Assembly: GCA_026636295.1 (NCBI GenBank)
Contig: CP089457.1
Location: forward strand, 1 to 64,000
Length of the DNA: 64,000 nt
Reading direction: 5' to 3'
From: Medakamo hakoo
Lineage: Eukaryota > Chlorophyta > Trebouxiophyceae > Coccomyxaceae
Below are positions 1-63,402 of this stretch, piece by piece (the first letter of the stretch is position 1; the number at the start of each line of letters is the position of its first letter). The position numbers and the translations under genes are program-made. The notes under the pieces were generated by a model. The model had not been told where the DNA came from, searched no databases, and saw only the letters and a list, made by a program, of their open reading frames with translations.

Positions 1-178
1 CCTAAACCTAACCCTACCCTAAACCCTAACCCTAACCCTAACCCTAACCCTAACCCTAACCCTAACCCTAACCCTAACCCTAACCCTAACCCTAACCCTA
101 ACCCTAACCTAACCCTACCCTAACCCTAACCCTAACCCTAACCCTAACCCTAACCCTAACCCTAACCCTAACTAACCT
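1..178. repeat. Telomeric CCCTAA array (left chromosome end)
   Basis: Nearly uninterrupted tandem CCCTAA units read 5' to 3' on the + strand, the orientation expected at a left chromosome end (TTAGGG running outward on the other strand). A few units are variant: CCCTAAA near the outer end, CCTAA, and CCCTACCCTAA. The main unit is the six-base human/diatom-type repeat rather than the seven-base Arabidopsis type. Confidence 0.97.
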
Positions 179-364
179 AACTCTAACCTAAACCCAACCT
201 TAAACCTAAATAAACCCTAAAAACCTAAGCGCGGCCATGCTTAGCGCAATGACAGTAGTCTAGGAACTCAGGAGAAAAAGCAAGACACGACACGCTCTCC
301 ATCCCCGCCCCGCTTTTCATAAGCGGACCCAGGCCAAGGAGGCGCCGCGCCTGTCCCCGCCCAG
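179..364. repeat. Degenerate telomere-proximal transition
   Basis: From about 179 to 228 the array decays into mutated units such as CTAACCTAAACCCAACC, AAATAAACCC and CCCTAAAAACC. It then gives way abruptly to unique, GC-rich sequence that contains the 3' flank of the first gene. No subtelomeric satellite or transposon is visible, so the transition is only about 50 bp and the first coding region ends within 200 bp of the telomere. Confidence 0.8.
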
Positions 365-5906: not shown

Positions 5907-8900
5907 TCACCCAGCCGCCGCGTCCAGCACGTCCCGGATGGCGACCACGTCAGGGTGGTCCGCCCCCAGGGCCGCCGCCTGGATGGTCAGCGCCCGCCGC
6001 AGCAGGGGCAGGCCGCGCGGCCCGTCCCCGCCCTCCAGGTGCAGCACGGCCAAGTCCGTCAGCGCGCCGGCCGTGGCGGGCGAGTCCGGCCCGGCCGACG
6101 CCTCGAACACGCCCACCGCCCGTTCCAGCAGGGTGGCCGCTTCGGCTCGCCGCCCGCGCGCCGCCAGCACCGCCGCCAGGCCCGCGAGCGCGTCGCCGAC
6201 CGCGGGGCTGGCCGGCCCGTGCGCCGCGGTGCGCCGCGCCAGCTCGGCTTCGAGGGCGGCGGGGTCCGCGTCCGCCAGCGGGTCGGGGGGTGGGGCGGGC
6301 GCGGCCGCGGCCCCGTCCGCGGCGGTGGAGGCGCCGGCGGCCCCCGCCGCGGGCGGCGCGGGGCTCGGCGGCCGCCCCGCCAGCGCGCGCAGCAGCGCCT
6401 CGCGCAGGCGGGCGTTGACGCCCGCCGCCGCCGGCGCCAGGCTGGCGCCCACGCCCGGCGGGAGCAGGGGCCCCACCGCCCGCGCCAGGTCCAGCGCCGC
6501 GACGCGGACGGGGGCCGACGCCGACCCGGCCGCCGCCAGCGCAAAGCGGGCGACACCCTCCAGGTCGGAGTGCGGCGGCGGCGGCGGCGTGGCGGCAGAG
6601 GCCGGAGAGGCCGGGCCGGCCGGGGCGGCGGCCGCGGCCGCGGCCGCGGCCGGGACCAGGTCCGCCAGCACGGCCAAGCGGGCGGTCAACGCCCGGGGCG
6701 CCATGGCCGCCACGGCCGCCGCCCAGCGCGCCCCGGTCCCACCGCCCGCCTTGACCAGCGCGGACACGACGGCGGCCACGCCCTTTGGCGCGCCCGCCGC
6801 CAGCCGTTTCAGCGCGTCCGCGGCGGCCGCGGCGGCCCGGGCGTTGGTGTCCGCCAGCCGGTCCACCGCCGGCGGCAACAGCTCGGCCACGACCGCGGAC
6901 GCGTCGCGGGCGGACGGCGCCGCCTCGACGGCCGCGCACCCGGCGCCGAGCGCGGCCGACACAACCGCCGGCACCCGGTCGCGCGCCGCCGCGGCCGCCG
7001 CCGCCCGGGCCAGCGCCCGCACGTACTCCCGGCGGTCGAGCCCGCCGCCGCACTCGGCCGCGGTCGCCAGGCCCGGCTGGGCCGCCGCCACGGCGCCCCA
7101 CCCCGCCTCGCGCAGGGCCCAGGGCCGGGAGGCCAGGGCCGCCGCGGTGTACCACCCGTGCGCGGCGGCCAGGGCGGCCGCCTCCTTGGCGGCCGCCTCA
7201 TCCCGCGGCGGGTCGGGCGGGGGCAGGTCGGCCGGCCAGCCTGGCGACGGCGGGCACGCCGCCACGAGCGCGGCCAGGGCCGCGGCCGTGTCGGCGGTGA
7301 GCGGCGGCGGCGGCGGCGGCGGCTGGGGAGGGGCGGGTGCGGACGGCGGCGACGGGGGCGCCACATCCGCGCCACCGCCACCACCACCGCTCGCGCCGTC
7401 CCAACTCGCCCTCCCCACCACCGGCCGGTCATCCAGGTCGCGCTGGGTGAGGCGGGGCGGCGGGCGGGGAGGGGGCGGGGACCACACGCCTCCTCCGCCG
7501 GCGGGCGGCGGCGGCGGCGGCGTTGGGTGTGGGTGGGCGTGGGGGAGAGGCACGGCCGGCGGGGCCCGCGCCGAGCTCGCCAGGGGAGGAGGGGCGGCCG
7601 CGCGCACGGCCTTGACCGCTGCCGCCGCCGCCTCACCCCACCGCCCGCCCTCGACGCCCGCGATCAGGGCGGCGGCCTCCGCCCGCACGGCCCCGGCTTC
7701 GGCCTTTGCAGCTTTCGCGGCTTCAAAGTCTTCCACGCCCGCCGCGGCGGCTTGGCGGGTGACGGCCGCCTCCAGCCGGGCGTCGACCTCGCGCAACGCG
7801 GCGGCAGCCGCTTTCAACGCGCCAGCCGCGTCGTAGTCTTCGGCAGCCGCGGCCGCGGCTTTCGCCGCCTCCAGGCGCGCGAGCGCGGGCACGAGCGGCG
7901 GCCTGTGCGGCGGCGGCGGGGAAGGCGCCAGGGGGGCGTGGTGCGCGGCGCCGGCCACGGCCGCGCCCGGCGCCAGGACGTGGGCCGGGTCCTCCCCGGC
8001 GGCCGCGGGCGGCGGGCGCGCCCCGACCACCGGCTCGCCGACCAGGCTGACGGCCACGAGGCCGACCTGGCGCCCGCCGTTGAGGCCGTTGGCGTGCGGG
8101 CCGTGCAGCGTCAGCCGCACCGCCACGGCCGGCACGCCGCCCAGGGCCACGGACTTGAGCTCGCGTGCCGCATGCCCGGACCGGGTGTTGGGGTCAAACG
8201 CCAGGCGGCCGAGCGGGCGCCAGGTGAGGGGCGCGCCCAGCGCGGCGGCCGCCGCAGGCGTGCGGGCGAGCGCGGCGCCCAGGCCGTCCGGCGCCGCGAC
8301 GGCCACGTCCACGGCCGCCGCGATTTTGTACTCATGCGCCAGCAGCTGCAGAGCGTGCAAGCGGGCCGGCGTGGCCAGGGACAGGACGAGCTCCTGCGGG
8401 TAAGTGCACCGCCTGTGTGTGTGTTGTTGAAGATGGGGAGAGGTCGGTGAGAGGGAGAGGTCGAGCAGCGCGCAAGGCGGGCAAGATGCGAGCGACGAAA
8501 ACAAAAAAAAACACCGCCGTCCACTCACTTTGCGCTCTGCCACCCACTCGTGCCGGGCCCACGGTTGACCAGGTCGCTGGCCGGGTGGCACGGGTCCTGT
8601 GTGCGGGAAGAGAAAGCGTGAGGGGGGGACAACGGGGAGCGACACACGCTGCCGGCGGTGCGTTTGAGCGCGGCGCGAGGATAGAGGAAGGGCTCGGCGG
8701 CGAGGCAGCCACCCGCTTCGTCTTCGCCGGCCCACCCCGTCCAATGCAGGAGGCCGCAGGCGTCCCGCGCGTGTGTATTGCGCGCAGCTCAGGCGGGCAC
8801 GGCCCCCGGCGGCCCGCCGCCGAAACGGAAAACAATCCGCTTGGTGCGCCGAAACCGACGCGCCGCCCCTCCCCTCTCCCATCAAGGCACACAGCCCCCC

Positions 8901-8987
8901 ACGCACCTCTCCCGTCGGCGCCGCGGCCGTGAACCGCAGCTTGGACGCGGCCGGCCCACCAGTGGCGGCGCCGGCCTCACCCGTCAT
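5907..8987 (-). CDS. CEP104: CEP104-like ciliary tip / centrosomal protein with TPR tail
   Basis: Three exons (8907-8987, 8529-8596, 5907-8412) give about 884 residues. The N-terminal jelly-roll region is recognisable across both introns: SGWQSAK, then RCTYPQELVLSL, then LQLLAHEYKIA and NTRSGHAARELKSV, matching CEP104/FARR1 proteins. A coiled, UVR-like segment (DYDAAGALKAA, DFEAAKAAKAE) is followed by a Pro-rich linker and an Ala-rich helical-repeat region in the TOG position. The final about 130 residues look like kinesin-light-chain-type tetratricopeptide repeats (HGPASPAVGDALAGLA, LLRRALTIQAAALGADHPDV). Known CEP104 proteins bind microtubule plus ends and the ciliary tip. Human CEP104 ends in zinc fingers, which I do not see here, so the TPR tail is unusual. 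Identification is strong for the N-terminus and weaker for the TOG part. Confidence 0.85.
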   Translation of the reverse strand: MTGEAGAATGGPAASKLRFTAAAPTGEVRGGLCALMGEGRGGASVSAHQADCFPFRRRAAGGRARLSCAQYTRAGRLRPPALDGVGRRRRSGWLPRRRALPLSSRRAQTHRRQRVSLPVVPPSRFLFPHTGPVPPGQRPGQPWARHEWVAERKVSGRRCFFLFSSLASCPPCALLDLSLSPTSPHLQQHTHRRCTYPQELVLSLATPARLHALQLLAHEYKIAAAVDVAVAAPDGLGAALARTPAAAAALGAPLTWRPLGRLAFDPNTRSGHAARELKSVALGGVPAVAVRLTLHGPHANGLNGGRQVGLVAVSLVGEPVVGARPPPAAAGEDPAHVLAPGAAVAGAAHHAPLAPSPPPPHRPPLVPALARLEAAKAAAAAAEDYDAAGALKAAAAALREVDARLEAAVTRQAAAAGVEDFEAAKAAKAEAGAVRAEAAALIAGVEGGRWGEAAAAAVKAVRAAAPPPLASSARAPPAVPLPHAHPHPTPPPPPPAGGGGVWSPPPPRPPPRLTQRDLDDRPVVGRASWDGASGGGGGGADVAPPSPPSAPAPPQPPPPPPPLTADTAAALAALVAACPPSPGWPADLPPPDPPRDEAAAKEAAALAAAHGWYTAAALASRPWALREAGWGAVAAAQPGLATAAECGGGLDRREYVRALARAAAAAAARDRVPAVVSAALGAGCAAVEAAPSARDASAVVAELLPPAVDRLADTNARAAAAAADALKRLAAGAPKGVAAVVSALVKAGGGTGARWAAAVAAMAPRALTARLAVLADLVPAAAAAAAAAPAGPASPASAATPPPPPHSDLEGVARFALAAAGSASAPVRVAALDLARAVGPLLPPGVGASLAPAAAGVNARLREALLRALAGRPPSPAPPAAGAAGASTAADGAAAAPAPPPDPLADADPAALEAELARRTAAHGPASPAVGDALAGLAAVLAARGRRAEAATLLERAVGVFEASAGPDSPATAGALTDLAVLHLEGGDGPRGLPLLRRALTIQAAALGADHPDVVAIRDVLDAAAG

Positions 8988-9467
8988 TCGTGTCAGGGGC
9001 CGGGCGGGCGCGGTGGTGCGGGTGACAGCAGGGGACCGAGAAGAAGGAGAGCGCAAAACGCGCGTGTGAGAGGCCAGGTCGAAGGCTCTGCCCTCCCCAC
9101 ACCCCATCCATCCATCCAATCCATCCACCCACCCATCCATCCTCTCTTTCTCACCCACCTCCCGCTCCACGCAACAAGAAAAAAAGAAGATTCGCAAAAG
9201 GTCGGGCAGATCCTTTCTTACAACCCCCAAACACCCCTAAAGAAAAAAACACGGCGTCCTGGGCCCGCGACTTGCGCGCGCAACTCAATCGGCGCGGCCC
9301 GCCCCGGTCCATCACGCCTCCACGCAAAGTCAAACAAGAAAAGGCATTCATAAATTAGAAAATAGATCGCTGAGAGGGCGGGGGAGGGGCGGGGGACGTA
9401 TTCCCCACCCACCCACCCGCCCAAGTCTTCACGCGCTCTCTCCCCACACCACCACCGAACGCCCTCC
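8988..9467. other. Intergenic
   Basis: 5' region of CEP104 and 3' flank of the next minus-strand gene. It holds an ATCC/CATC-rich imperfect tandem stretch around 9103-9140 and several A-tracts (9177-9187, 9239-9250). No gene recognised. Confidence 0.5.
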
Positions 9468-10421
9468 TCACGCCGAGGGCGGGCACCCGATCGACCCGTC
9501 GCACGCGTTGACGATGGGCCCGCCCAGCGCCGCCGACGAGCACCGGGACGCCTGCGCCAGCCGAATGCCGCCGGCGATGGCGTTGTCCGCGTTGGAGGCG
9601 GCCCCGCCCAGGAAGGCGCGGGCCAGCGACCCGACGACCGCGTCGCACCCGCACGAGTTGGCCGCGAACTGGCGCAGCTGGGCGCAGCACGCGTCGTTGG
9701 GCTGGGGCACGTTCTTCAGGGGGCCCGTCGCGGAGAAGGCGGAGCAGGGCGCGTTGGCGTACTTGGCCGCGATGTCGCGGAAGGTGGACGCGTAGGAACC
9801 GCACGGGCCCTGGAGTGTGTGTTGTGGGGGAGAGGTGGGTGGCGCCGGGTGAGGAGGGGCCATTCCCTTCCTCCTCCCCTCCATCGTCCCAAGCCCCACG
9901 ACCACCCACCGCCCCCCGATCTCAGGGCCCCCAAGACCGCGCGCTCACCGTCTCCAACTGGCTCCCAAGGATGCTGCACGTGATGGGGTTGGCTGTAGTT
10001 TCGGAAAAGGTGGGCGTGAGTGAGGGAGGACGGAAAAAAAGAACGCACAGGCGGGGCCAGTTGAGGTTGAGAGGCGAAGCCGCCTCCCGCGCGCTCGTGA
10101 GCGTCGGTCGCTGACCGACCCAATGGGCCGCCCCCTACCCCGTCCACACCCCCTCCCCCCAATCTCACGCGGCAGGTGGTCGGGCACAATCTCACAGCCG
10201 CCATTGTGGTGGAAAGCACGACGCCAACGCCGGCGCACGGGCCCCGGTGCGCAGACAAAGCCACCGCCCGCGCGCTCGGCTTCCACGCGGGTGGAAGCCG
10301 GCCGTCGCCCGCACGCGCACGCGCAAGCAGAGCGTCGCCCCCAAGCCTGCCCACCCATCCACGCACCGCTCACAGCGCCAGCCAGCAGGGCCAGCACGGC
10401 CAGGACGATCGCAAAACGCAT
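9468..10421 (-). CDS. Small secreted 10-Cys protein, array member A
   Basis: Exons 10367-10421, 9949-9992 and 9468-9809 encode 146 residues. The first exon is almost exactly a signal peptide (MRFAIVLAVLALLAGAVS) and the intron falls in phase 1 just after it, as in array members B and E. The mature protein has ten cysteines in the order C-x11-C-x18-C-x18-CC-x10-CxC-...-C-x12-C-x5-C, with the ending LGGPIVNACDGSIGC. The C..C..CC..CxC..C..C core recalls the plant eight-cysteine (lipid transfer / prolamin) fold, but the spacing differs and two extra cysteines are present. It is therefore secreted and disulfide-rich; lipid binding is only a guess. An (AC)n/(GT)n microsatellite lies about 30 bp upstream of the start codon. 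Confidence 0.8.
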
Positions 10422-10447
10422 GGTGGGGCGGTGTGGATCTGCGAGGG

Positions 10448-10503
<56 letters not shown>

Positions 10504-11022
10504 AGAGAGAGAAAAAGCGCATGCACCGTCGGTGAGTTTCCTTTGATGCGACCGCCTCCTGGCCGGGAGCGGACCAAACTCGACCCGCCCACCCTGCAGG
10601 CCCAAGCGCTGGAGGGCCGCGGCTGGGATGGGCGGGGGGTATGGATGCGCCCGTGCGTGCGTGCGATGTTGCGCCTCCTCCCCCCAACACACCTAGCAAA
10701 ACAAGTTGAGAGGTGTGGCCAGCGGCCGCCCTCGGTCCAACACTCACCGGTCTGGGAGTGACAGCACACAACAACAAGTGACCGAAAACAACGCGCGGGC
10801 TGGCACAATGGTAGAGTTACACTTCGTAGATTGTAAAAAAGAAAAGGCAAAAGACAAAACTCCGTGGGAAAGGAGACGCGCCGCGGGCAGGCCTGTCCCC
10901 CCACCCTCCCCGTGCACAGACGGAGTGAGAGGGAGAAAGTGTTTCCAGCCGGACGCGAAAAGCAAACCTTTGCCGCACGGCAGAGAGACGCGAGTAGTAG
11001 GGCGCCCGCCGCCGTCCAGCCA
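10422..11022. other. Intergenic with (GT)n microsatellite
   Basis: 5' flank of array member A and 3' flank of member B. The GT repeat at 10450-10500 is listed separately. The rest is unique; a stretch at 10800-10830 loosely resembles a tRNA A-box but lacks a partner B-box or fold. Confidence 0.5.
10450..10500. repeat. (GT)n dinucleotide microsatellite
   Basis: About 25 uninterrupted GT units, located 30 bp upstream of the start codon of array member A. On that gene's sense strand it reads (AC)n, inside the likely 5' UTR or core promoter. It produces artefactual Thr-His and Cys-Val ORFs. Confidence 0.97.
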
Positions 11023-11641
11023 TCACGCCGTCACGCCCCCACCGCCGACCGGGCAGCCCACCGAGCCCGTGCACGCGTCCAGCATGGGCCCGCCCAGCGC
11101 CGCGCCGGTGCAGCGCGACCCTTGGATCAGCGCGACCACGCCCGCAATCGTCGTCGCTGTGTCGGCGCCGGCCGGCAGGATGTGGAGGCCGTCCAGCAGG
11201 GCTTGGACGTCGCCATCGCACGCGCAGCCCGCCGACACAAAGGCCCGCAGGGACGTGCAGCACTCGTCGGTGAGGGCGTCGGCGCCGACGAGGGCGGCCA
11301 CGTCCGCCTGCACGGCCGGGCAGGTGACGCCGCCCTCCGCGTACGCGGCCACCGTGTTGGCCGCCCCGAAGAAGGGCTGGCGAATGCCGACGCACGCGCC
11401 GTGCGAAATGGCCGTGATCTCGGACGCGCAGTCGGCTGGGGTGAGAGAGTGTGGAGAGGTTTACGTGAGGGAAGGCGAGGGGGGGGGGATGGAGGCGTGG
11501 TTGAGGAGGTGCGGCGGAGCGGTGCGGAGGGGAGACGGGCCACCGCCACCCCGCCACCTCACCTTTCACACCGGACGCGGCAGACGCCAGCAGGGCCAGG
11601 GCGCCGACGGCTGCGACAGACGGGCGGAGGGAGGGGACCAT
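11023..11641 (-). CDS. Small secreted 10-Cys protein, array member B
   Basis: Two exons (11563-11641, 11023-11435) encode 163 residues. The leader (VGALALLASAASG) is a signal peptide and the only intron is phase 1, immediately after it, as in members A and E. Ten cysteines follow the family signature C-x11-C-x23-C-x19-CC-x10-CxC-...-C-x12-C-x5-C, with the shared LGGPMLDACTGSVGC ending. Closest by eye to member A. Secreted disulfide-rich protein of unknown role; resemblance to plant eight-cysteine proteins is by pattern only. Confidence 0.8.
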
Positions 11642-12327
11642 GTCGCTGGGCGTGGGGAGTGTGTCAGAGGAGGCGAGGAGAGTGAAAAAAAAGCAAAACT
11701 TGTTCCCCTTGCGCGCGCGCGCGGCCACGGACAGCCGGCGACGCCCCCCGGCCTGCCACCGCCCTTCCCACCCGCGCGTCCGGTGGCGCGGTATGGTTGA
11801 CGACGTACGACGAGCGTGGACGACGCTCCAGCTCCGTGCCAGCGTGCGTGGCACGACGGGCTCCCCACCACGCGCGCGCGCCCTGCCTGGAAAAAAAAAA
11901 AAGCCGATGCGTCGGCCAGGTCGGGGCCCGCCGCCCGCCGCCCAGACGCCCACCCACCCCGCCCACCCACCCCACCTCCCCACTCACCTGGAGTGGAGGG
12001 CAAACGCTGACGACTAGGGCTGGCGCAGCAGTGGGTGAGGCAAATGGCTGGCGGGCCTGCCTAAATGAGAGAGCGGGGGAGGCGCGTTTTTTCCTTGGAC
12101 GGGGGAATGAGAGGCGGGCAGAGGTGCGCGCAAAGAGGTTTTTGGTTTACACTCCCCCACACGCGCGCGGGGAAGGGCTTTTCTTTGGTTTTACAATGCA
12201 AAAGGACACACGCACACACACCACGCACACAGCAGCGCCCCAGTCCCACCACCTCCGCCGCGCCCGGCCACCCCAGCACGCGTTCGGGCTAGGGAACACC
12301 CCCACCACCCACCCTCTCTCTCTCTCT
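11642..12327. other. Intergenic within the Cys-rich array
   Basis: 5' flank of member B and 3' flank of member C, 686 bp. On the minus strand a TGTAA motif occurs near 12190, about 135 nt after the member C stop; TGTAA is the usual chlorophyte polyadenylation signal, but it is seen here only occasionally. A12 tract near 11890. No further gene recognised. Confidence 0.45.
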
Positions 12328-12810
12328 TCACCCGCCGGCCGTCATGGCGGGCTGCCCGCCCGCGGCGGCGGGCGCCGCGTCCCCGGCCGGCGGCGGCCCG
12401 ACGGGGATGCAGTTGCCACCGCACGGGTTGTTCAGCGGCTTGTAGCCGGCGGCCGGGTCGGCGCACCGGGACACGGTGGCCAGGCGCGCGCCGCCGCGCA
12501 CCGTGTCGGCCGTGTACCCGCCGACGGCGGCCAGGCGGCCCACGTCCGGGTCGCACCCGCACCCCGCCTCCACGAATTCGCGCAAGTCCGCGCAGCAGGC
12601 ATCGTCCGCGACGGGCAGGGTGAGCTGGACGGAGTGCAGGGTCGCGCAGTCGGCGGCGACGACCGACGCGGCCACGCGCGTCGACTCGGCCTGCATGGGC
12701 CGGCACGCGCCGGAGGACAGGCGCATGGCCATGCGCACGCACTCCGGGGACGCGGACGCGGAGCCAGCCATCAGGGCGGCGGCGAGGAAGGCGAGCGTGC
12801 GCAGGGACAT
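12328..12810 (-). CDS. Small secreted 10-Cys protein, array member C (intronless)
   Basis: Single exon of 160 residues with a clear signal peptide (MSLRTLAFLAAALMAGSASA). The cysteine pattern matches its neighbours: C-x11-C-x18-C-x16-CC-x10-CxC-...-C-x13-C-x3-C, with ADLREFVEAGCGCD in the centre. It differs by lacking the post-signal intron, by a shorter last loop (x3), and by a Gly/Ala/Pro tail of about 30 residues after the last cysteine. The first residues MSLR are identical to member E. Loss of the intron, perhaps through a retrocopy or gene conversion, is an inference. Confidence 0.8.
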   Translation of the reverse strand: MSLRTLAFLAAALMAGSASASPECVRMAMRLSSGACRPMQAESTRVAASVVAADCATLHSVQLTLPVADDACCADLREFVEAGCGCDPDVGRLAAVGGYTADTVRGGARLATVSRCADPAAGYKPLNNPCGGNCIPVGPPPAGDAAPAAAGGQPAMTAGG

Positions 12811-13533
12811 GGTGGCGTGTGTTTTTATTCTTTTCTTGGCTGGGGAGTGCGAGAGGGCGGGGACGGGGGGGAGGGGAAGGTGAGCGCAGGCGCGCGAGGG
12901 TGCATGCGGGGCGGGGACGAGCCGGGGCACGACGAACGAGGGCAGGAGCGCCCTCATCGCTCGCGCACCCGCATCGGCCGGAAAGCCGAGCATTTGCAGG
13001 CCCCATGCGAGGCGGAAGCGGGCCAAAAGAGTGCGTCACACGCCCCAGGTGGCGGTGTCGGAACAAGCCCGCCGAGGCTAGCTCGCGCTGCGTCGCGGCC
13101 AAGCCTGCGCAGGCAAGCAGCCCGGGGGCCAGGCTTGTGGCTCTGCCCACCGCCCACCGCGCGCCCCGTGCGTGGCCTGGCCCTGTGCCTCCGAGGAGAG
13201 CGGGTGCGGCCCAGATCCGTGGGTCCTAGCCGCGCGGCGGGGGGGAGTCATCCGCAACGGAGAGGGAGGGGGAACTGCGCGTCCGCGGGCGATGGAAGGG
13301 GGCGGCGGTGCGGCCACACCGCGCGCCTCCGCCTCCTTTAAGCATGCTTGCAGGAGCCTGACCGTCTCAAGCCTGGGCCTTGAAGGGTCAGGCAGTGGAT
13401 TGGCCACGGGCGAGCGTGTTTTTGGCGACGCACCTTGTGTGCTCGGGCCCGGAATTAGACGCAGTGTGAGCGAGCAAGCGGCGCGCCGCCACTCACTTGC
13501 TCCTTTCCCCACACAACTACACGCCCGATAAAA
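12811..13533. other. Intergenic, divergent promoter region in the array
   Basis: 723 bp between the start codons of member C (-) and member D (+). GC-rich unique sequence; no recognisable ORF, TATA box, RNA or repeat. It probably contains both promoters. Confidence 0.45.
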
Positions 13534-14296
13534 ATGAAGACCGTCGCCCTCTTCCTGTTCGTCTGCGTCGGCCTGGTGGCGGCGCTACCGCCCTTACCCA
13601 AACCGCCGGTGTTGGGCAACCCCGCGTGCTTGGCGCACGTCAACACGCTGCGCAGCGGCGCGTGCGAACCCGTTGCCAAGAAAATCACGAAAGACACGGC
13701 CGCCAAGATTTCGGGCGCGTCCTGCGCTGAACTAGAAGCCCTGGACATTGTGTCTGACGTACGAAAGGCGGGAGGCGGCGGGAGGAGGGGCGGGCGCCCC
13801 CCCCTGGCGACGCGTGTGGCGCCGCCTGCTATGGTTTTTTTTGGCATGCGCGCCGCCGCGCCGTCCAACTACACACCGCCGCCCGCCCGCCTCACCTCCC
13901 TTCCCGCCCCATCCCCCGTCCTCCAGGCCTCCGAAGCGTGCTGCGCGGACGCCGTCAAGTTTGTGCAGGACGTAAGTTTGGTGGCAGCTGTGTTTTGGGG
14001 GGGGGACCGGTTCTTGTGTCTCACACAGCTAGGCCGCCACAACCACGGCAGGTCCAAACTCACCCCCACCGACCCACCCACCACAGGGCTGCGGCTGCGA
14101 CCCGGGCATCCTGGGCTTGATCAACGCGGCCAACGTGGACGCGGACGTCCTGTCCGGCGCGGTCCGCCTGGCGCAGACGTCCAGGTGCGCGGCCGCCGCG
14201 CCGGCCGGGTGGGTCAACCCCTGCGAGGGCGCGACGTCGTGCCTGGCGGCGGCGGCGCCCGTGAAAAAAGCGCCGGCGGCTGCCAAGGCTGGGTGA
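13534..14296 (+). CDS. Small secreted 10-Cys protein, array member D
   Basis: Exons 13534-13758, 13927-13971 and 14087-14296 give 159 residues. Signal peptide MKTVALFLFVCVGLVAA. Both introns are phase 0 and sit in the middle of the cysteine domain, one before and one inside the CC-x10-CxC segment, unlike the phase-1 leader intron of A, B and E. The second exon is only 45 nt (ASEACCADAVKFVQD). Cysteine spacing is C-x11-C-x19-C-x15-CC-x10-CxC-...-C-x11-C-x5-C. A Lys/Ala tail ends the protein. It is the only plus-strand member, so an inversion separates it from its neighbours. Confidence 0.8.
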
Positions 14297-14708
14297 GGGT
14301 GGTGAGGGGGAGACCGTGCCTGCTGGGAGGGGGCGGCGTGTGGGAGCGTGTGTGTGAGAAAACACACGGCACCACCCCCTCCCTGCTGTGTGCTCCCTGC
14401 AAACCTCTCGACAAGGGAGCGCGGCAGGGCGGGGTGGGGTTTTGCTTTTTGCTTTTCGGAAACAACACAAAAGAATCATTTTTGCAAAGGGCCAGCCGGC
14501 CTGGACGGCTGGTGTTGTGGGGGGGTTCACGGTCTCTCAACTGTCCAGGGTCGAGCGCGCGGACGGAGCGGCAAGGGAGGGAAGAGCCGCAAGCCTCCCA
14601 CCCTCACCACCCGCCAGCACACGCGCGTCGCAGATATAAACACATACACACTGACTCTCAAAATCCCACGCTCCCAAAAGCAAGGCCGCCGGCTCCATGG
14701 GCGCATCA
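14297..14708. other. Intergenic between convergent array members
   Basis: 3' flanks of members D (+) and E (-). An AT-richer patch with ATATAAACA near 14634 stands out from the surroundings. No gene seen. Confidence 0.45.
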
Positions 14709-15373
14709 TCACACCGCGCCACGGCAGCCCACATCGTTGGTGCACGGGTCCATGATCGGCCCGCCGTGCGCGGCGTCCGCGCAGGAGCCGGCCTGCGCCA
14801 TCTTCAGCGCGGCCGCCAAGTCGGCGGGCGTGCCGCCGCCCAGCTGGACGAGCTCGCCCACGTCCTCGTCGCAGGCGCAGCCCATGGTGATGAACTGGCG
14901 CATCTGGACGCAGCAGTCCTCGGACGCGACGGGCATCTGGGCCTGGAACGCGATGACGGCCGGGCACTCCATCGCCAGGATGTCGGCCGTGTGGGCCTGG
15001 GTCGCGGCCTGCAGCCCCGCGCACGGGCCCGCCCGCATCTGGGTGGCCAGCGTCGCGCACTCGGACTTGGACTCCACGGACAGTTTGGCTGGAGAGTGGT
15101 GTGGGTGTGGTGTGGCGGGGGTGGAGGTGTGGGTGCGTCGCGTCGCGCGCGAGAGAGAGGGTGGCCGTCAGCCCCTTGCCTGGTTTCTTGCCCCCCGCGC
15201 ACGACCAAAACAACCGGGCACGCCGGCCGCGGCTGCACGCAGGTGCGGGCGTGCGCGGCTGCCGCCCCTGGGTGCTCCATCGCCACCTCCACCCCTCCAG
15301 ACCCACCTTGTCCGTACGCCGTGGACGACAGGGCGGCCACCAGGGCGGCGAGCAGGGCGGCGCGCAGGGACAT
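14709..15373 (-). CDS. Small secreted 10-Cys protein, array member E
   Basis: Two exons (15307-15373, 14709-15088) encode 148 residues. Signal peptide MSLRAALLAALVAALSSTAYG; the single intron is phase 1 right after it, as in A and B. Ten cysteines: C-x11-C-x18-C-x16-CC-x10-CxC-...-C-x12-C-x5-C, with VQMRQFITMGCACDED in the centre and HGGPIMDPCTNDVGC at the end. Last member of the array. Function unknown; extracellular or vacuolar location is inferred from the leader and cysteine content. Confidence 0.8.
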
Positions 15374-23889: not shown

Positions 23890-25348
23890 TCACTTCCGCT
23901 CCAGGTGCAGCACCAGGATCGTTTGGTCCGAGCGCTGCGGGTCGGCCGCCGCAGCCGCTTCCAGGCGGGAGAAAAACGTGTCGACGGCGGCTTGCGCCGA
24001 GGCCACGGCTTCCGCCTCGCTCATGCGGGCGCGCTTGACGGCCGCCAGTTTGGACACCATCATGCCGGCCAGCACGGCTTCGAGGAAGAGGCGGCTGCCC
24101 GCCCCAAACGCGGCCGCGTCGCCGTCGCGCTCGTACGCGAGCCAGTGCGGGAACGGCATGGTGATGGGCGTCGCGGCAATGACGCGGAAGGCTTCGGCCG
24201 CAGCATGCCCACTCCCTTCTTTGAACGGCGCCAACAGCGTGGCCGGCGGCGACAGGTTGACGGGGATCACGACGGCCGCACACTCCTCGTCCGTCAGCGT
24301 GCCGTCGTCCCGCATGCCAGCCCACGTGCTCGCGACCTGCTGCCACATCAGGGGCAGCGACGCCATGGGGTCGCCCGCATCGCCATCCATGCCCTCAGGC
24401 GCCGCGACCAGCGACGCGACAAACCGCCCGCCGGGCACCAGTTCCGCCGCCCGGTGGCGCAGGATGGCCGCCCAATCCTGCGCCGCTTGCTTGGCGCACT
24501 CGGCCCGGCGGCCCGGTTCCGACGACAGCCAGGCGAACAGCGTGCCGTCCGACAGGCTGGCCGGCGCGGTCGACGCCCAGTGGAACGTGGCGGCGCCGTG
24601 CGCCAGCGCCTGCGAAGCGGCCGGGAACGACTGCTGGTAAAACCCGGCGTCAGAGCCCTGGGCGTACACAAACAGGTCGGGCGGGGACCGGCCGTACTCC
24701 CGCGCGCATTTGAAGACCGTGTCCCACGCATTGCCCGTCAGGTCGACGTGCGTGACGGTGACGGGGCGGCCACTGGAGGAGAGCGGGCCGTCCAGGACCG
24801 CGTCGACTGCGGCCTTCATTTGGGCGACCGCGTTGGCGCCCTCCGAACAGCCGAAATCGGCAAACGCCAGGGGGGCGGACGGCGCGCCAGCAGGGGTGGG
24901 CAGGGCTGCCGCGGCGAGGGCGGCGGCGACCAGTTCGGCGCGGGCGGCCTGTGTGCGAGTGTGGGATGGGGCGGCAGTGCGCGCGCGTGAGTCAAGGGCC
25001 GGAGGGCGGCGTGAAGCCGCCTGTCGTCGCGGTAGTCACCGCCCCCGCCACACAGCCGGCCGCCCGGCTGGTGGGCAGGGCGGCGCCCGCGACCACGTCA
25101 CCACGCACACGTCCACGAGATGTCCACATCCCAGCGCTCACCGAGAGCTGCACAGCTTCACCCCGGAGAGACGCCGCCTGCTGGCGAGGCAACTCCGTCC
25201 ACCAAACACGCATGCGCTCCGCACTCGCAACACACACACTCGGACGCACTTCATTCATGCCGCGCTGGAATTGAGAGCCCTGGTTGTACATCCCTTTCGT
25301 CATGGGCGCGGCGACAGTCGCCGGGCGAGCGGCTGTGTCCAGGGCCAT
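23890..25348 (-). CDS. SABATH-family carboxyl methyltransferase
   Basis: Exons 25250-25348 and 23890-24948 join in phase 0 to give 385 residues, the normal family length. Exon 1 supplies the N-terminal MYNQGSQFQR motif, equivalent to the plant Y..NS..Q substrate/SAM contact. Exon 2 carries the SAM-binding motif ADFGCSEGANA, PDLFVYAQGSDAGFYQQSFP, the FHWASTAPASL substrate region, ELVPGGRFVASLVA, and the C-terminal FF.R.E pattern. Plant relatives methylate the carboxyl group of salicylate, benzoate, jasmonate, gibberellin or indole acetate, or xanthine nitrogens; the substrate here cannot be read from sequence. It is divergent from the DHQS-II gene with 150 bp between start codons. Confidence 0.85.
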
Positions 25349-61443: not shown

Positions 61444-63402
61444 TCAGCCGACGATCCGGATGTCGTCCAGGCACACCGCCGTGTACGGGCCGTTGATGTT
61501 GGCCTTGGACCCGTCGTCCGTGGACGTGAAGCCGACGCCCGTCAGGTCGGACAGGGGGCACTTGAAGTCGGACAGCGGGATGGTGAACTTGTGGTAGCCC
61601 TCGCCCACGGACTGCACGCCCTTGTACGACTGCGTGAAGATGTCGGCGCAGTCGAACGATTCCTGGCCGTCGGACCCGCGCACGAGGAAGACTTTCAGGG
61701 GCGGGATGGAGTCCTTGGGCGTCGCCGCAAACTCCAGGACGGACGTGTCGGCCTTGACCACGAATTCCAGGGCCTTGGCGCCGTTGAACGGCTGGTAGCC
61801 CGGCTTGTCGCACCCGCGACACACAAAGCGCATGCCGCCGCCGACCATGAGGGACGCGCACACGGCGTGGCTGCCGCCCCGCCCCGACCCGGCCGCGCTG
61901 TACAGCTGGTACCCGTTTTTCCAGGACTGCCAGGACCAGCCGACGCCGGTGCCGTCGTGGTAGATCTGGCGGGAGATGGCGCCCGGCAGGAGCATGAGCG
62001 GGCGCTTGGAGTCGCAGTCGACCGGGCGGAACTGGACGGCCATGGCGCCGTACAGCGGGTGGGCGAGCTGCTCAAACGCCCAGTAGGACAGGTCGAAGTG
62101 GTAGACCGTCGAGTCGGCGGAGCACCAGGGCGAGTTGGGGTTGGGCGGGCACGAGTCGATGATGCGGACCCAGGTGGTGGGCGAGCCCGGCCAGCACTTG
62201 ACGGCCTGCAGCCCGGCCGCGTCCTCCGGGTTGCCCGGCCACGACCGGCCCTGGGTGTCGGTCACGCCCGGGTTGACGGACGGCATGTAGTAGTGTTCCG
62301 CCACCTTGACGGGGGTGACGCCGCCGCCGGGCGTGTAGTCCATGGGCACGACGCCGTCCTTGCACCGGACCTGCGCACAGGGCAAAGGGTGGGTGGGTGT
62401 GGGGCACGCGGGGGCGGGTGGGGGCGGGTGAGGGCGGGGGTGTGTGTCCCTTGTCTCCCGGGGCGGGGCGCGCCCCTCAGCCTCCCATCTCCCCCCCCCA
62501 CCCACCTACCCCCCACTCCACCCTCTCTTCACCTCGTAGCACCGCCCACACGACCCCGGGAAGTCAGGGTTGACGTTGGCCAGCGCCGCGGCGTGCTCCT
62601 TTTCAAAGGGCAGGTCTTCCTCCCGGATCTTGTCGACGCCCTGTGTGTTTGGAGTGATGGGGAAAAAACGGGCGGGAGTGGGGTGAGAGGGAGAGCCACC
62701 GCGCGCCCGGCGCCCGGCGCGCGCGGAGACTGCGGGCCCCGTTTCCAACACGCGTCCCGCCGCCTCATCGCCGCATGTCCACCCCGTCCAACCACCATTT
62801 TCCGGTAGCGCACATCACACCCGTTCAAATGGGTGGAATGTGCAGATGCGATCGTCCCTGACCGCGCCGCCGTTGCCTTTCCCGCGCCGCAATGCCAGCT
62901 ACGGCTAGCGGGCCTCCCCCCGCATCAAAGGAAAAGGAGAAACGAGGCGGCAGCGAAAAGGCCTGAGGCGCCTATGGGCCACCAGCCTACGTCAGAACTC
63001 ACGCCCAGGGCATCCACGCCGGTCTGGGATGGAGAGAGCGGGCTAGCACGCCCCCCGACCGCTCGCCCGCCCCGCAAAAACGGCGCGAGCGAAACCTCCG
63101 GCGCCGCGCGCGGCTTCCGCGCCTGACTGATTGCCTCGCCCGCGCCCGGGCGCCCAGGCACCCCTCTCCACCCCACACACCTGGGGCTTGTTGAAGTAGC
63201 CGCACGACCCCCACAGCAGGTCGCCAAACGCGCCCTCGCCCCGGTCTTTGAACGCGTTGGCAAACTCGGACGGCGCGCCGAAGAACGTGGCGCGCCCGTC
63301 AAACCAGCCGTCGCCGGAGGACGGGGTCTGGACGTACGCGTGCGCGGTGTTGAGGGTAAAGGCCGCCAGGGCCGCCGCAAACGCGGCGGTCGTGGGCGCC
63401 AT
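61444..63402 (-). CDS. Secreted expansin-like double-psi beta-barrel protein
   Basis: Four exons (63181-63402, 63003-63023, 62533-62640, 61444-62370) give 425 residues. Signal peptide MAPTTAAFAAALAAFTLNTAHA. The barrel begins GWFDGRATFFGAP and LLWGSCGYFNKP, continues to PGSCGRCYE|VRC, and contains a proton-donor-like aspartate in VRIIDSCPPNPNSPWCS followed by FDLSYWAFEQLA, close to the expansin HFD motif. A second domain of about 180 residues (FKNGYQLYS region to CLDDIRIVG) is beta-rich and ends like a carbohydrate-binding module, with many cysteines. Exon 2 is a 21-nt micro-exon whose TGVDALG resembles the start of exon 3 (GVDKIRE); it may be optional. Likely loosens or binds wall polysaccharide. 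Confidence 0.8.

Follow-up and report, generated by a model that had tools for sequence, protein, structure and literature searches.

Ten-cysteine proteins resembling lipid-transfer proteins in a subtelomeric gene array of the green alga Medakamo hakoo

Introduction

For a long time algae were believed to lack non-specific lipid-transfer proteins (nsLTPs) (PMC6698131; PMC9832785). The survey of Huang et al. (2023) reports 29 nsLTP genes from 13 of the 35 algae surveyed; most of these genomes have one or two and none has more than eight, the eight genes of Coccomyxa C-169 belonging to group AI (PMC9832785). Because the land-plant spacing found nothing in algae, the search rule of that survey allowed n = 8-50 residues between the cysteines of the eight-cysteine motif (8CM) (PMC9832785). 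The proteins of group AI are described with an extended C2-C3 loop, a middle residue of the CXC that is mostly P or S and multiple introns inside the 8CM; algal nsLTPs span 10.4-50.3 kDa with 24% above pI 8, and Chlamydomonas CrLTP2, a binder of C20-C24 fatty acids, increases in late zygotes, the walls of which are thickened (PMC9832785). Here we compare with these systems an array of five genes (A to E), encoding cysteine-rich proteins with secretion-type N-termini, located in the window, that is bases 1-64,000 of contig C10 (861,458 bp) of the green alga Medakamo hakoo (genome of 15.64 Mb in 16 contigs).

M. hakoo is an ultrasmall trebouxiophyte. Its published assembly comprises 16 nuclear contigs flanked by TTAGGG, with 72.7% GC and 7,629 predicted nuclear coding sequences (PMC9871001). 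The alga is described as having thick cell walls and as forming lipid droplets in nitrogen-depleted medium. Among the papers listed by literature searches, as judged by titles and abstract openings, neither an LTP family of M. hakoo nor a ten-cysteine nsLTP is described.

Results and Discussion

Cysteine signature and gene models

The initial annotation had described in the array proteins ten cysteines with a C1-C2 spacing of 11 and a CC-CxC spacing of 10, and exactly this arrangement, with both fixed spacings, was found in all five (Table 1); the proposed ending GGP(I/M)..C is present in A, B and E (3/5) and is absent from C and D. As to signal peptides, hydrophobic N-termini were seen in 5/5 proteins, judged from hydropathy only. 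With guessed cleavage sites, the mature proteins have masses of 12.4-13.9 kDa and pI of 4.2-7.6 (acidic for B, C, D and E), which fall within the range of algal nsLTPs. The middle residue of the CxC is A or G, the C2-CC stretch counts 35-43 residues, and the rule C-Xn-C-Xn-CC-Xn-CXC-Xn-C-Xn-C with n = 8-50 describes each of the five proteins. In contrast, the canonical land-plant rule (n = 8-30, exactly eight cysteines) does not describe them, and neither do the canonical 6-10 kDa and pI 8-12, as far as guessed cleavage sites allow.

All five genes assemble between positions 9,468 and 15,373, as had been annotated, and every intron of A, B, D and E is of the GT...AG type. A, B and E have in common an intron close to where the signal peptide ends, which interrupts an alanine codon behind its first base, and the second intron of A lies directly before the G-x-C2 motif, where the paralog C14a appears alike by eye. 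Inside the 8CM region there is one intron in A, two in D (the sole plus-strand member) and none in B, C or E. The environmental proteins P0006 and P0008 are continuous across the second junction of A (...QLETGPCG...) and P0016 is unbroken over both junctions of D, a looser support given its distance from D, so that these splices are backed without transcripts. When E was used as genome query, C, A and B were recovered at E values of 1.3e-18, 3.4e-12 and 5.7e-12, D, a gene split by introns, not being listed; the D query recovered C, A, E and B at 5.6e-17, 5.5e-11, 3.5e-6 and 7.1e-4. These recoveries indicate that the likeness within the array is not due to chance. The window has 485 stop-to-stop frames with a length of 80 aa or more; a loose eight-cysteine pattern occurs in four of them, each being the open frame of one of the genes A, B, C and E. 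A long GT/CA dinucleotide run at 10451-10501 precedes the start codon of gene A by about 30 bases.

Table 1. Positions and properties of the array genes and of the telomeric repeat in the window
Feature	Position	Strand	Exons	Length	Cysteines	Cysteine spacing	Remarks
Gene A	9468-10421	-	10367-10421, 9949-9992, 9468-9809	146 aa	10	11-18-18-CC-10-CxC-34-12-5	borderline PF00234
Gene B	11023-11641	-	11563-11641, 11023-11435	163 aa	10	11-23-19-CC-10-CxC-35-12-5	
Gene C	12328-12810	-	intronless	160 aa	10	11-18-16-CC-10-CxC-29-13-3	
Gene D	13534-14296	+	13534-13758, 13927-13971, 14087-14296	159 aa	10	11-19-15-CC-10-CxC-29-11-5	
Gene E	14709-15373	-	15307-15373, 14709-15088	148 aa	10	11-18-16-CC-10-CxC-29-12-5	mature part modelled
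Telomeric repeat (CCCTAA)n	1..180, end approximate						start of contig C10; read directly

Relationship to lipid-transfer proteins

We propose that A-E would be secreted, all-helical, disulfide-locked nsLTP-like carriers of wall-directed lipid, a reading that we hold, as a whole, to be evenly poised between right and wrong, the LTP superfamily relationship taken alone deserving somewhat more confidence. An LTP or prolamin ancestry is supported, although not proven, by several lines of evidence. The first is the Pfam family PF00234 (LTP/seed storage/inhibitor; gathering cut-off of 21.7 bits), which ranks first for A as well as for its homologs and several paralogs, in agreement with the earlier suggestion of a likeness to the plant eight-cysteine fold. 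The homolog P0006 of A passes the cut-off (25.8 bits, E 1.3e-5) and A itself scored 21.4 bits when spliced, 21.8 as an unspliced draft of the mature part and 21.9 in a six-frame search of the genome. Weaker matches, for which PF00234 is the best or only family, were obtained for C11a (E 0.0039), C10b (0.0094), C1b (0.079) and B (0.18; 12.5 bits, under the cut-off), and it is the second-best family for C11b (0.044); in B, C10b, C11a, C11b and C1b these matches fall on the same CC-CxC stretch. When the alignment was scanned against Pfam, matches at E <= 1 came from 5 of its 25 rows.

None of ten decoys, five made from A and five from P0006 without moving the cysteines, matched any Pfam family (0/10), so that the LTP signal exceeds what the cysteine spacing alone would give. 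Compared with seven solved plant LTP sequences, the family profile scored 25.1, above each of 60 decoys (maximum 22.4) whose columns were shuffled except for those of the cysteines. With the LTP types taken separately, the local scores beat 60/60 decoys for both types and the global scores 59/60 for type 1 and 60/60 for type 2. The stretch that is alike between the family and plant LTPs is ACCxxLR...GCxC. With land-plant nsLTPs of types 1 and 2 (PF00234/PF14368) the family thus shares this similarity and the order C..C..CC..CxC..C..C, whereas A-E have two more cysteines, a C2-CC stretch of 35-43 residues against about 13-14 in solved LTPs, and no significant structural match. A search of the genome with PF14368 gave no match and is uninformative, since its 14 controls were equally silent.

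Other results weigh against this relationship. The PF00234 cut-off is missed by B-E and only borderline for A; no match to it is listed for C, D and E, nor for C5a, C5b, C1a, C8a, C8c, C14a, P0016 and P0017; and the HHalign probability between the family and plant LTPs nonetheless reached only 27%. Sequence searches of the PDB with A1, P0006 and A2 returned no match, and no NCBIfam family was found over the 25 rows of alignment A2 at E <= 0.01. Structure prediction is divided: the model of the mature part of E is confident and runs from a CC helix directly to CxC, then two helices, C8 and a tail, an order which we take to be that of nsLTP2, but neither this model nor a second one has a significant PDB match. 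The confident yet unmatched model, the low HHalign probability and the scores of B-E under the Pfam cut-off would be expected if the proteins had a new secreted helical disulfide fold, in which CC...CxC converged with that of LTPs and which served as a structural protein of the wall or surface. We regard such a convergence as doubtful, given the residue-level signal beyond cysteine spacing in the decoy tests, the recovery of PF00234 in the same CC-CxC stretch of several divergent paralogs and the existence of eight-cysteine paralogs.

PF00234 takes in inhibitors and storage proteins besides LTPs, and secretion-type N-termini with many cysteines would also suit protease or amylase inhibitors, or antimicrobials, of the wider prolamin superfamily that carry no lipid. 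With HyPRPs, 2S albumins and amylase/trypsin inhibitors, members of PF00234 as well, A-E appear to share the superfamily cysteine core, and they seem to differ from this group in that A-E show no long proline-rich repeat. B, C, D and E have an acidic pI, unlike typical antimicrobials, which are cationic. As the published algal 8CM proteins cluster on the side of the nsLTPs, apart from inhibitors, 2S albumins and HyPRPs, and as fatty acids are bound by one of them, an inhibitor or antimicrobial role seems unlikely.

The added cysteine pair

The paralogs C11a and C11b, which are 49% identical and look like sisters, are both without C3 and C10 and read C-12-C-36-CC-10-CxC-29-C-12-C, their remaining eight cysteines standing in nsLTP order with an extended C2-CC loop of 36 residues. 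Exactly these two cysteines would form the extra pair pointed out by the initial annotation, and what is left is a bare eight-cysteine motif. Since C3 and C10 are missing together, C3 is suggested to pair with C10, and the other eight cysteines to be an nsLTP core with a long C2-CC loop; since the two genes look like sisters, a single evolutionary event is more probable here than two. The family is therefore probably nsLTP-like with one added cysteine pair, C3-C10, a pairing that, like the ancestry, is supported rather than proven. It should be weighed against this assignment that HHalign aligns C3 with the first LTP cysteine and that the Pfam match to A also starts at C3, so that another mapping of the core is possible.

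According to the nsLTP-like model, A-E would descend from, or be built like, eight-cysteine nsLTPs, with C1, C2, CC, CxC, C8 and C9 as the core. The C2-CC loop would have been lengthened to about 35-43 residues and bears C3, which would probably bond C10, added near the C-terminus. By analogy with described nsLTPs we infer lipid binding and wall delivery: a long-chain lipid would most likely be held in the helical core and carried to or within the thick cell wall, and the paralogs may be split by lipid cargo or by stage. A more specific version is put forward tentatively, as falling somewhat short of an even chance: a chlorophyte radiation of the LTP superfamily apart from land plants, in which at least 15 Medakamo ten-cysteine proteins would have an inserted helical stretch, the C3-C10 fifth disulfide and an enlarged helical cage, unlike solved structures, for wall lipids.

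Family members across the genome and comparison with group AI

Genome searches with E and six paralogs gave 18 loci on six contigs, a lower bound, of which 17 were modelled as genes: six on C10 (the array and one at 792.7 kb), three each on C8 and C5, and two each on C14, C11 and C1. The splices of C1b, C5b, C8c, C11a, C11b and C14a, outside the window, were set by eye. The eighteenth locus, C5:358109, has the CC-CxC exon and uncertain N-terminal exons. A match at C4:207427 was dropped as it had no CC-CxC motif, and C14:51184 (E 0.38) was left out of the count. The signature is accordingly not limited to the array, since 15 or more genes in this genome carry it: ten cysteines are present in 15/17 modelled genes and eight in C11a and C11b, while CC-x10-CxC is kept in 17/17. 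The C1-C2 spacing of the 15 ten-cysteine genes is 11 in eleven, 10 in two and 13 in two, and it is 12 in the C11 pair. The middle residue of the CxC is A, G, V or T in 16/17 genes, P in C11b alone and S in none. Long Pro/Gly/Ala-rich stretches precede the ten-cysteine domain in C1a and C5a; they recall the proline-rich N-terminal regions of CrLTP1/2 and, presumably, the layout of HyPRPs. In C11b the domain is followed by a long A/E-rich tail (the pair lies within C11:754001-761500).

The earlier statement that the spacing fits no family was too strong, since the 2023 survey (PMC9832785) describes nsLTPs of green algae whose spacing is stretched. Like group AI (CrLTP1/2, Coccomyxa C-169), the Medakamo proteins combine a secretion-type N-terminus, the 8CM order and an extended C2-C3 loop, a shape shared by C11a/C11b and the array proteins (C2-CC of 36 and 35-43 residues, respectively), together with a mass above 10 kDa, a mostly low pI, adjacent genes and introns inside the motif (here A and D). 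They differ from this group, taken by its published description, in having ten cysteines in 15/17 modelled genes, A, G, V or T instead of mostly P or S within the CxC, 18 loci against one or two per genome (eight in Coccomyxa), and no intron inside the motif in B, C and E.

Conservation and chromosomal position

All five genes have homologs in environmental protein data, close ones in the case of A, B, C and E and a distant one in that of D, with identities over the mature part of 83-85% for the closest of A (three proteins, two of them, P0008 and P0009, identical in the part used), 74-80% for B (five proteins), 96-97% for C (two), 79-98% for E (four) and 42% for D (P0016). Only about 8,000 candidates sharing most words were scored in each of the three protein-database searches, so that more distant relatives may exist unseen. 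With E as query, viral contigs gave no match, and genome contigs gave 15 pattern matches of which none was confirmed. As a yardstick, the neighbouring TPR/HAT gene has one homolog at E <= 1e-30 (64% identical over 77%), a rough comparison because the species may differ and 7,988 word-sharing candidates were scored. A-E are only 29-44% identical among themselves, B being 43% identical to the paralog C8b. The gap between these values and the 74-98% of the homologs indicates, by sequence comparison, that with the exception of D the genes of the array are old and have each been kept individually; the description of the array as fast-diverging is not supported, D alone being loosely conserved. In the tree, which left out the B-like fragment P0014, 6 of 30 inner branches are well supported and 16 weak, so that no deep grouping was drawn; the join of D and P0016 is itself weak (85/53), which makes the counterpart of D uncertain. 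For each of P0015, P0004 and P0005 (homologs of B, C and E) the longest contig listed has 83,297 bases, which suggests, without being proof, that they sit together in a relative.

The term subtelomeric holds for the five-gene array, as TTAGGG-type repeats begin at base 1 of the window and the array lies 9-15 kb from the telomere; the C14 pair also adjoins a telomere (5.8-7.4 kb). As to a possible subtelomeric bias of the whole family, a contig end is less than 20 kb away for 7/18 loci but only for 2/10 clusters (binomial P 0.06), and less than 100 kb away for 4/10 clusters (P 0.13). The position of the array and the C14 pair, as well as the 42% identity of the closest homolog of D, would agree with a fast-evolving family of recognition or allelopathy. 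This is, however, very improbable in our view: A, B, C and E are 74-98% identical to their closest homologs, 8/10 clusters are more than 20 kb from contig ends and A-E are old, distinct paralogs.

Other features of the window

A Pfam scan of 19 of the longer coding-like frames of the window gave, besides other proteins, a NIF-type phosphatase, a CEP104-like protein, a TPR/HAT protein, a GH30 glycosidase, HisG, a carboxyl methyltransferase and an ABC transporter, and no obvious lipid-polymer biosynthesis cluster appears among these neighbours. The CEP104-like frame (CEP104_N, TOG) with TPR repeats, at 5910-9236 (-), is odd for a coccoid alga: CEP104 is a protein of the ciliary tip and centrosome, and we know of no flagella in this alga. 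At 23893-25035 (-) lies the frame of a SAM-dependent carboxyl methyltransferase; its family, PF03492, is known above all from plants. The frame at 61447-62505 (-) has a DPBB_1 match below threshold (26.5 against 28.8 bits) and is possibly a wall-loosening protein. Neither a tRNA scan with the bacterial code nor a bacterial promoter scan of 61 bases gave any result, and these scans have no bearing on the family.

Significance

A count of 18 LTP-like loci in a genome of 15.6 Mb would exceed every count in the algal table of 2023. If the proteins are LTP-like, the family would have expanded independently of a terrestrial life. The natural occurrence of versions with eight and with ten cysteines within one genome may also provide a clean way to ask what effect the added disulfide has on the cavity.

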